A stretch of DNA of 64,000 nucleotides, taken from positions 2,046,992 through 2,110,991 of the forward strand of contig NZ_CP132333.1 in NCBI RefSeq assembly GCF_030758935.1, written 5' to 3'. The DNA is from Geothrix sp. PMB-07. GTDB lineage: Bacteria > Acidobacteriota > Holophagae > Holophagales > Holophagaceae. A program made the translations under genes and the position numbers. Shown piece after piece: positions 11,929 through 23,916 of the stretch. Below the pieces are notes generated by a model that was given only the letters and a program-made list of their open reading frames with translations, was not told the DNA's origin and made no database searches. Positions within the stretch are counted from its first letter, which is position 1. Each line of letters begins with the position of its first letter.

Positions 11929-12900
11929 ATGGCACACACCCACGCTTCAGCCTCCCCCCGTGGTCTGGGCCCGGACACCCAGCAGGCTGATCTCGCCAAC
12001 CTCACAGCTTTGCTGAAGGCCCACGCGCCCTATGACGGTGTCTTTGAACTGCGCCTTCCCGGGGTGTTCCTCAGCCGGGCCTCTCAGGCGCACAAGGCCT
12101 TCCACCATGCGGTGCAGCGCCCGGCCCTGTGCCTGGTGGCCCAGGGGGCGAAGCGGGTGATGCTGGGGCAGGAGCTCTTCGAGTACGACGCCTCGCGGAT
12201 GCTCATCTATTCGGTGGATGTGCCCGTGGCCGCCCAGGTCACCGAGGCCACCCTCGACCAACCATTCCTGGGGATTCGACTGAACCTGGATCCCAGCCGA
12301 ATCGCTGATCTGACCTCCAAGGTGTACCCGCATGGCCTCCCCAAACGGGAAGAGGGCCGCGCCATCTGCGTCGATCAGGCCGACAGCCACGTGCTCAACG
12401 CCGTGGTGAGGCTCCTGGAACTGGCCTCGCAACCGGGCGAAGCCGACCTGCTCGCGCCGCTGGTCATCGACGAAATCCTGATCCGGCTGCTGCGCAGCCC
12501 CCTGGGTCGCCGCGTGGCCCAGATCGGCCAAGAGGACGGCCGCCTCCACAGGGTTTCCAAAGCCGTGGCCTGGGTGCGGGCGAATTTCGACCAGCCGCTG
12601 GACGTGGAACGGCTGGCCACCCTGGTGCACATGAGCCCCTCCTCCTTTCATCAGCACTTCAAGGCCGTCACGTCCTTTAGCCCCCTGCAGTACCAGAAGG
12701 CGCTCCGGCTGCAGGAAGCCCGGCGCCTGATGCTCCATACCCAACTGGATGCCGGGCTGGCCGCGCAGCGGGTGGGCTATCAGAGCGCTTCCCAGTTCTC
12801 CCGTGAATACGGGCGTTACTTTGGAAACACGCCCACCAGGGACATGGCCGTCCTGCGGGAGCAGGCCGCGCACTCAGGTGCTGCTTCTCCAGACGCGTGA
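11929..12900 (+). CDS. AraC-family transcriptional regulator (YqhC-like)
   Basis: A 323-residue regulator. Residues ~25-180 match the AraC N-terminal ligand-binding type (RPALCLVAQGAKRVMLG, LIYSVDVPVAAQV). Residues ~215-310 hold two helix-turn-helix units (LDVERLATLVHMSPSSFHQHFK, then AAQRVGYQSASQFSREYGRYFG). Family knowledge: members with this N-terminal domain, such as YqhC, sense reactive aldehydes and activate adjacent reductase genes. It sits 90 bp after the CMD gene in the same direction, so it probably controls the reductase/CMD pair, perhaps through the AT-rich repeats near 9791-9840. That regulatory link is inferred. Confidence 0.9.
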   Translation: MAHTHASASPRGLGPDTQQADLANLTALLKAHAPYDGVFELRLPGVFLSRASQAHKAFHHAVQRPALCLVAQGAKRVMLGQELFEYDASRMLIYSVDVPVAAQVTEATLDQPFLGIRLNLDPSRIADLTSKVYPHGLPKREEGRAICVDQADSHVLNAVVRLLELASQPGEADLLAPLVIDEILIRLLRSPLGRRVAQIGQEDGRLHRVSKAVAWVRANFDQPLDVERLATLVHMSPSSFHQHFKAVTSFSPLQYQKALRLQEARRLMLHTQLDAGLAAQRVGYQSASQFSREYGRYFGNTPTRDMAVLREQAAHSGAASPDA

Positions 12901-12910
12901 GGGGTGGTTG

Positions 12911-13004
12911 GCCGCCCCTGCTTCTCGGCAGTCCGAGTCTGGTTCTCTCTCCGCCGTACAAACGAAGATCGGGGCCGAGGCTCCGATCTTCTGTGTGGTG
13001 GCTG
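12911..13004. repeat. 94-bp direct repeat, copy 1 (tRNA-Met 3' end plus terminator)
   Basis: Identical over 94 bases to 13129-13222. On the minus strand it contains the tRNA-Met acceptor end with encoded CCA and the hairpin that terminates the tRNA transcript (copy at 12964-12991). Offset between copies is 218 bp. Together with its surroundings it fills 12901-13213, a stretch with no protein gene. Confidence 0.9.
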
Positions 13005-13058
13005 ACCAAGGTCTTCGGGCCGCGTCCGCGCGGACCGAAGGAGGCAGACTCGAACTGC
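12996..13058 (-). pseudogene. tRNA-Met relic: T-arm and acceptor end split by a palindrome
   Basis: On the minus strand, a T-arm fragment (13040-13058, identical to 13222-13240 of the intact tRNA) is followed by an insert of about 35 bases containing the palindrome 13013-13040 (CTTCGG...CCGAAG ends with CCGCG/CGCGG inside), and then by the acceptor end and CCA (12996-13004). The 5' half of the tRNA (D arm and anticodon) is absent. It cannot make a functional tRNA and looks like a degraded tandem copy. Confidence 0.75.
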
Positions 13059-13128
13059 GCGCGTGGCTGGCCACGGCTGCGGACGCTGCGCAGGCCCCAC
13101 AGGGGCCTTGCTCACTGCAGCCTACCTG

Positions 13129-13222
13129 GCCGCCCCTGCTTCTCGGCAGTCCGAGTCTGGTTCTCTCTCCGCCGTACAAACGAAGATCGGGGCCGAGGCT
13201 CCGATCTTCTGTGTGGTGGCTG
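13129..13222. repeat. 94-bp direct repeat, copy 2 (overlaps intact tRNA-Met 3' end)
   Basis: Second copy of the repeat at 12911-13004. It covers the acceptor end of the intact tRNA-Met and its downstream terminator. The unit boundary falls inside the acceptor stem, as expected for a duplication or integration event at a tRNA 3' end. Confidence 0.9.
13182..13209 (-). terminator. Terminator hairpin of tRNA-Met
   Basis: Minus-strand hairpin GAAGATCGG / CCGATCTTC with an inner AGCC..GGCC extension, just 4 bp past the encoded CCA and followed by GTTTGT. It is repeated exactly at 12964-12991. Confidence 0.75.
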
Positions 13223-13290
13223 GAGGCAGACTCGAACTGCCGACCTAGGGATTATGAGACCCTCGCTCTAACCACCTGAGCTACCCAGCC
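13214..13290 (-). tRNA. tRNA-Met (CAT), elongator type
   Basis: A 77-base cloverleaf with encoded CCA (13214-13216). The 5' acceptor GGCTGGG pairs with TCCAGCC, D stem is GCTC/GAGC, anticodon loop CTCATAA, T arm GGCAG TTCGAGT CTGCC. It resembles E. coli elongator tRNA-Met more than initiator (no C1-A72 mismatch) or tRNA-Ile2. One T-T mismatch closes the anticodon loop. It lies 53 bp downstream of the fumarate reductase gene on the same strand. Confidence 0.93.
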
Positions 13291-23795: not shown

Positions 23796-23829
23796 ATTCC
23801 GTCCTATTTGCCTATCCTGGCAAATGGTG
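23796..23829. repeat. 34-bp direct repeat, copy 1 (tRNA-Ile2 terminator and CCA end)
   Basis: Matches 23883-23916 at 33 of 34 positions, offset 87 bp. It includes the stem ATTTGCC...GGCAAAT and the minus-strand CACCA of a tRNA end. Between the copies lie a 9-bp palindrome CGCCAGCAC/GTGCTGGCG (23831-23853) and a smaller GCCC/GGGC hairpin. Confidence 0.85.
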
Positions 23830-23882
23830 ACGCCAGCACGTCCTGTGCTGGCGCCCTTCGGGCGGAATGTCCCTGGCGAGTC

Positions 23883-23916
23883 ATTCCGTCCTATTTGCCT
23901 ATCCAGGCAAATGGTG
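23883..23916. repeat. 34-bp direct repeat, copy 2 (overlaps intact tRNA-Ile2 3' end)
   Basis: Second copy of the repeat at 23796-23829; it covers the CCA end of the intact tRNA and the hairpin beyond it. Confidence 0.85.
23893..23912 (-). terminator. Hairpin immediately after tRNA-Ile2
   Basis: Perfect 8-bp stem ATTTGCCT / AGGCAAAT with a 4-base loop, touching the last base of the encoded CCA. No long U-tract; probably a processing or termination hairpin. Confidence 0.55.

Follow-up and report, generated by a model that had tools for sequence, protein, structure and literature searches.

Downstream of the tRNA-Met(CAT) gene in the window (the whole stretch of 64,000 nt from Geothrix sp. PMB-07 analysed here), we found a short array of hairpin units, one of them complete and one truncated. 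These units represent a family-wide, tRNA-matched hairpin element that is absent from the libraries and papers searched. With a probability of about 0.5, we propose that the locus belongs to a group of gene-less, attC-like hairpin cassettes that were inserted at the T loops of tRNA genes by a putative recombinase acting in trans. What we observed directly is the anatomy of the units, their link to tRNA and tmRNA genes, the match of their arms to these genes, the covariation of their base pairs, their presence or absence at an orthologous tRNA and their occurrence in tandem.

Anatomy of the tRNA-Met locus

The features of the locus are listed in Table 1; the tRNA gene is presumably of the elongator type. 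Read on the tRNA strand, positions 13160-13043 form a 118-nt imperfect hairpin composed of an inverted T-arm copy, a structured core and a direct T-arm copy, scoring 121 bits with our second covariance model (R2, see below). The 68-bp spacer at 13059-13126 is the core of this conserved hairpin, whose left arm (13160-13145) inverts the T arm. Unit 2 gave only a weak R2 match (12942-12837, E=0.031), and its truncation point lies 8 bp from the stop codon of an AraC-like ORF (11929-12900).

Table 1. Features of the tRNA-Met array in window coordinates, in the order of the tRNA strand
Feature	Position	Strand	Evidence
Intact tRNA-Met(CAT), target gene of the unit	13290-13214	minus	ARAGORN; Rfam RF00005, 62.5 bits
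Terminator-like hairpin 1, start of unit 1	13182..13209	minus	inverted repeat
Unit 1, inverted T-arm copy (left hairpin arm), CCAGACTCGGACTGCC	13145..13160	minus	
Unit 1, structured core: unpaired CGAGAA, L-like stem with one extrahelical A, GGTAG, variable stems	13058..13144	minus	R2 match, pair counts
Unit 1, direct T-arm copy (right arm), CAGTTCGAGTCTGCC	13043..13057	minus	exact repeat and R2 match
38-nt stretch from T arm to acceptor end of unit 2, containing the 28-nt hairpin 13013-13040	13005..13042	minus	
Copy of the acceptor 3' end of the tRNA, CAGCCACCA	12996..13004	minus	
Terminator-like hairpin 2	12964..12991	minus	inverted repeat
Unit 2, inverted T-arm copy, identical to 13145-13160 via the 96-bp repeat	12927..12942	minus	
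Unit 2, core, left half only; breaks off here	12909..12926	minus	

A preliminary description of the locus had reported an exact repeat of 94 bp. The repeat is real, although its length is 96 bp (12909-13004 = 13127-13222), and it comprises the acceptor end, the terminator, the inverted T arm and the left half of the core. That the downstream copy keeps the T arm, as also stated there, is borne out by a 19-bp exact repeat (13040-13058 = 13222-13240). With two exact repeats of such size in register, chance can be excluded. The 28-nt palindrome between T arm and acceptor end (13013-13040) is likewise present as described, with a 12-bp stem, one mismatch and a 4-nt loop. A unique palindrome together with a duplication caused by misassembly had been named as grounds for abandoning that reading. 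The palindrome indeed occurs only once in its own genome, according to a search that used 21 of the 28 bases and tolerated up to three mismatches; an assembly artefact, on the other hand, is ruled out because the genome is a single contig (4,242,863 bases, with the 401-bp region present in full once) and because the comparison with other genomes, suggested at the time, recovered the same layout.

The further idea that a small palindromic element had been inserted here has to be given up: in the tRNA-Met arrays of eight other genomes, the second unit has an equally long hairpin at this position, with compensatory changes. Altogether, the stretch with the 12-bp hairpin between the T arm and the acceptor end of the second unit was seen as nine distinct sequences in nine genomes (G000, which is the genome of the window, G018, G006 and G060, G001, G009 twice, G023, G012, G066). 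It always measures 38 nt, and its stems are altered on both sides, as in GGCCAACG/CGTTGGCC versus GGTCAACG/CGTTGACC. Because of the constant length and the two-sided stem changes across genomes, we regard it, judging from sequence comparison, as an old and structurally kept part of the Met lineage. We suspect that the palindrome prevents the use of the second acceptor copy as a target or its processing. As to the decayed attachment site that had been considered as well, the duplicated tRNA 3' end is att-like; a decayed private relic it is not, with the unit recurring across the family and its base pairs covarying.

Distribution of the units and their match to tRNA genes

Matches to the region were obtained in 51 of 60 genomes (own genome included), and in several species they extend, at 80-85% identity, over the tRNA, the terminator and the supposed relic. 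The order of the repeated unit is terminator, inverted T arm, GAGAAGCAGTGGCGGCC, variable stems, GGCCAGCCACGC and direct T arm, after which a further acceptor end, terminator and unit often follow. When intact, the copies form a long imperfect hairpin. A covariance model built from 17 tRNA-Met units (R1) found matches in 34 of 47 Geothrix genomes, many of them away from tRNA-Met. The second model, R2, was derived from 56 sequences and searched on 396 genomes of the phylum, 32 of which had matches: 25 of 26 Geothrix genomes and 5 of 13 other genomes of the family (30 of 39 sampled within the family), as well as two of the 357 genomes outside it. Both outside matches are marginal (E 0.0026 and 0.007), and for one of them (G089) the stretch examined held no tRNA. 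A pattern scan of genome contigs yielded at least four true units among the 80 loci listed (Geothrix; Holophagaceae, two; Acidobacteria). For viral carriage, none of 31 IMG/VR stretches with the core pattern matched R2, and a 21-base junction pattern had no match in IMG/VR. Except for tRNA, no Rfam family exceeded its gathering cut-off in the window, and we found no description of the unit in the searched libraries or among the open-licence PubMed Central papers that our searches listed.

The link to tRNA genes is close. Our set of 98 sense matches (101 aligned matches less three antisense echoes) was selected by the element models and not by tRNA proximity. In this set, 93 units immediately follow a tRNA or tmRNA gene, or a 3' fragment of one, on the same strand: 88 behind an intact gene (within 650 bp), five behind a tRNA-Met 3' fragment, and none arranged otherwise. 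The five others have no RNA gene within 650 bp, with 0 to 653 bases of upstream sequence in three cases and 744 and 918 bases in two. Thirteen tRNA species and tmRNA are covered, with Met over-represented because R1 was built from tRNA-Met units. The R1 units away from Met are located behind tRNA-Val(GAC), Arg(TCT), His(GTG) and Leu(CAA) and have arms matching those tRNAs; R2 added Ala, Cys, Ser, Gln, Glu, a second CAT tRNA and tmRNA.

For the 57 units that could be placed behind a tRNA or tmRNA by a simple core pattern, we compared the arms with the RNA genes. For the inverted arm, the highest score came from its own RNA gene in 54 units (a tie counting as highest), and the direct arm was top-ranked against its own gene in 44. 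The units that missed the top rank mostly have eroded right ends or belong to tmRNA, where the inverted arm is only 7 nt long. Measured from the CCA end, the usual positions in the Val, Met, Arg, His and Ala units are 30 nt for the end of the inverted arm, which lies two bases past the T stem, and 25-29 nt for the start of the direct arm, beside G|TTCGA. The corresponding points in the Cys and Leu units are mostly 23 and 20 nt from CCA, inside the T loop. In the Met units of G021 and G004, the arms are changed to fit the variant T arm of their tRNA, although core identity is 94% between the two and 91-95% with other Met cores. Mean core identity is 0.80 for the same tRNA in different genomes versus 0.59 for different tRNAs, with values of up to 0.85 for His and Met. 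The cores thus cluster by tRNA type and jumps between tRNAs are rare, which counts against the cassette reading.

Hairpin structure and proposed mechanism

The consensus structure has 37 pairs, an unpaired CGAGAA and one extrahelical A between two 5-bp inner stems; a GTAG ahead of the inner stem is invariant or nearly so. Two-sided changes were found in 32 of the 37 pairs, and 94.3% of cells are paired (101 aligned matches, including the three antisense echoes). The covariation score is 0.504, compared with a mean of 0.146 after shuffling and no more than 0.070 after sliding the partners, numbers that are favoured by an alignment fitted to the model and made up of related rows. Counting over the 98 sense rows gave 23 G.U and 51 A.C among 2199 cells of the core helices. 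The acceptor and T stems of 41 tRNAs of the same loci gave 27 G.U and no A.C in 492 cells, and the arms of the units 114 G.U and 26 A.C in 1076 cells, the G.U excess residing mostly at a single position, the one that faces the second T of the T loop. Since the wobble pattern of the core is unlike that of tRNAs, it argues for a DNA hairpin rather than a transcribed fold, and the structure is probably under selection as DNA. The surplus of A.C over G.U in the core, read on the top strand, is at most a hint of bottom-strand recombination by an integron integrase, and the G.U excess in the arms speaks against this reading. A transcribed tRNA-like RNA was considered and rejected, since the long hairpin fold has far better support and the wobble pattern does not fit.

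We infer that the hairpin acts as DNA and that it is recombined by an enzyme acting in trans. A unit extends from the T loop of the tRNA over the restored acceptor end with CCA and the terminator to the long imperfect hairpin, the arms of which are inverted and direct copies of the 3' part of the same tRNA. The putative recombinase would read the folded strand, as an integron integrase reads a folded attC, and the folded unit would be exchanged with the T loop near G|TTCGA. A match of the inverted arm to the tRNA would be needed for the arms of the folded site to pair, and a match of the direct arm for strand exchange to succeed and the tRNA to be rebuilt. Tentatively, the units might even constitute an undescribed class of mobile DNA, i.e. 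gene-less cassettes that enter the T loops of tRNA and tmRNA genes via a folded single-stranded hairpin, form tRNA-matched sub-lineages, use tRNA genes as an integron-like platform for arrays and occasionally carry cargo, such as a cytochrome-like gene in G012.

Like integron attC sites, the units are long imperfect hairpins with paired outer arms, an unpaired spacer, an extrahelical base in the inner stem and a variable apical part. As in integron cassettes, sequence is free and structure conserved, units occur in tandem, the break lies near G|TT, and intI is present in the same genus. In contrast to attC, the T-arm copy reads GTTCGAG, GTTCGAT or GTTCAAA instead of GTTRRRY; the complementary left arm is present. 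The target is a tRNA T loop and not attI, the arms match the tRNA, the array is not beside intI or attI, and the units are almost always gene-less. According to PMC10127599, it is through two to three extrahelical bases that attC sites are recognised, and for secondary sites GNT is sufficient, with GTTRRRY as the extended form. The attC-type repeats of the own genome had no match to the unit covariance model; for this reason, and because of the outer box GTTCGAG, we do not class the unit as an integron cassette, although by analogy it may work like one. The own chromosomal integron (L039 1456-5253, corresponding to G000:C1:716456-720253) comprises intI and four attC-type repeats of ~68 nt, and a second intI of this genome is found ~1.3 kb downstream of the tmRNA gene.

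Of 60 relatives, 26 had integron integrases above the cut-off (24 of 37 in Geothrix; two genes in the own genome), as had 12 of 23 additional family genomes. By a hand count that includes some antisense echoes, there are 47 unit matches in 24 genomes with an integron integrase and 19 in 13 genomes without, so the presence of the enzyme does not clearly predict the number of units. G030, a fragmented assembly, has six matches yet no integron integrase. In the own genome, intI lies at 166 kb and 719 kb and the unit at 2.06 Mb. A unit was near intI in only one of ten intI neighbourhoods (G065, beside tRNA-Arg). An intI close to a tRNA or tmRNA gene was seen in G065 and once in the own genome, and in none of the eight other neighbourhoods, which we take as chance. 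A tight link between intI and the units is not supported. Tyrosine recombinases occurred in all ten unit-rich genomes examined, as a rule none of them close to a unit.

A competing explanation is that the units are attachment-site debris, in which case islands with their own integrases would have entered tRNA genes and left duplicated, eroded attL or attR pieces. Larger islands do use the same tRNAs in G006, G007, G004 and G028, with partial tRNA copies from the anticodon loop on located kilobases away, and cargo without an integrase was found in G009 and G008. Islander-type tRNA and tmRNA islands of tyrosine integrases (PMC4383910) share with our units the split and restored target and the direct repeat of the tRNA 3' end; a displaced tRNA 3' fragment at the far end and a restored target were found in G009 and in the pair G062/G032. 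Unlike such islands, the units (~180-220 bp) are too short for an integrase gene, have no cargo, and contain a conserved hairpin core as well as the tRNA 3' end in inverted form. We consider debris unlikely, given that compensatory change has kept 32 of 37 pairs, that the same core recurs at 13 tRNA species and tmRNA with an inverted arm tracking each tRNA, and that island repeats start near the anticodon loop and unit repeats at the T loop. Alternatively, template switching at the tRNA terminator hairpin could have inverted the tRNA 3' end by fold-back duplication, requiring no dedicated enzyme. The succession of tRNA 3' end, terminator, inverted 3' end, core and direct 3' end is indeed a palindrome chain, and an inverted copy that extends into or through the acceptor end was seen in units of Ser, Val (G169) and Ala (G208). 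Such events would leave unexplained both the homologous core (CGAGAA, GGTAG, extrahelical A) at unrelated tRNAs and the restriction to one family, which makes this origin quite unlikely.

The strong covariation, the constant orientation relative to the tRNA and a fold z of -3.6 for 13126-12960 would also suit a cis-acting RNA, transcribed past the terminator, that controls maturation or turnover of the tRNA by pairing with its 3' end or mimicking it. We judge this very unlikely, considering the wobble counts given above for tRNA stems (G.U 27, A.C 0) and unit cores (G.U 23, A.C 51), the terminator separating the tRNA from the unit, the many orthologous tRNAs devoid of a unit and the lack of an Rfam match. 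The (nearly) invariant GTAG before the inner stem resembles, as we assume, the tetranucleotide of REP elements and might point to REP/REPIN-like elements moved by a Y1 (RAYT-type) transposase. Like REP, BIME and REPIN elements with RAYT transposases (PMC3116915, PMC2817692), the units are short, non-coding and hairpin-forming, with a GTAG-like motif; they differ from these elements in being tied to tRNAs, in having arms that copy the tRNA, in their low copy number and in mostly lacking a Y1 transposase. PF01797 was absent from 13 of 15 family genomes searched, including the unit-rich G006, G015, G009, G018, G060, G208, G169, G001 and G008, and the units are few per genome and tRNA-bound. REP/RAYT identity is thus largely refuted, and we rejected it because the Y1 transposase is missing from most host genomes. 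The own genome has seven matches to Y1 (IS200-like) transposases, six with identical scores (G000:C1, at 701572, 1199946, 1205686, 1215559, 2679164, 2979456 and 3289546), which are absent in most of the relatives searched.

If hairpin cassettes are indeed inserted by a recombinase in trans, tRNA genes would be docking platforms for them, independent of attI, and two textbook systems, integron cassettes and tRNA-integrated islands, would be joined. The units would offer a natural target set for how a recombinase reads structure over sequence, and would account for duplicated tRNA 3' ends missed by annotation pipelines. Even with an ordinary enzyme, the family is a clear, countable, tRNA-specific element, undescribed in the searched libraries and papers.

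Empty sites, arrays and associated genes

In the case of an orthologous tRNA-Val, the site is empty in G062 and occupied in G032, where a 259-bp insertion is accompanied by a 61-bp direct repeat reaching from the T arm through the terminator. Positions 1-504 of both sequences align at 98.8%, and positions 444-1175 of G062 with 703-1434 of G032 at 94.0%. The insertion also includes a copy of a second repeat family (see below), and the difference could reflect loss by recombination between terminator copies instead of gain. Out of 46 genomes with a match, 30 tRNA-Val loci were inspected; by pattern, 13 have the inverted arm, one of the 30 being without downstream sequence. Tandem units were found at Met, Val, Arg, His and Cys tRNAs. 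The far end of the G009 array has an acceptor end and a terminator that resembles the one of the element-free G032. No excised circle was seen.

Some of the loci contain protein genes. Between the tRNA-Met array of G009 and a partial tRNA copy (L043 4054-7762), there is an integrase-less pair coding for an AAA ATPase and a subtilase-like protease, possibly a defence pair. In G012 (L044 5500-6560), a small cytochrome c-like ORF, identified by eye from the sequence, is situated in the tRNA-Met array between an acceptor copy and the next terminator with inverted T arm; this is the sole gene-bearing unit seen. The core of a tRNA-Met unit in G023 (L042 5100-9990) is split by ~4.8 kb encoding an FMN oxidoreductase and a DUF3187 protein.

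Additionally, we noticed a second, hairpin-rich repeat family of Geothrix, ~95 nt in length (TGACTCGG...GGATTCCGTCCTAT...GGATGGT). It is inserted in many tRNA-linked units (L145, L146, L125, L122, L128, L141, L016, L025 and L044), often in the T-arm copy or after the GG of GGTAG. In the window, a copy (23820-23911) stands in reverse orientation behind the second tRNA with a CAT anticodon.
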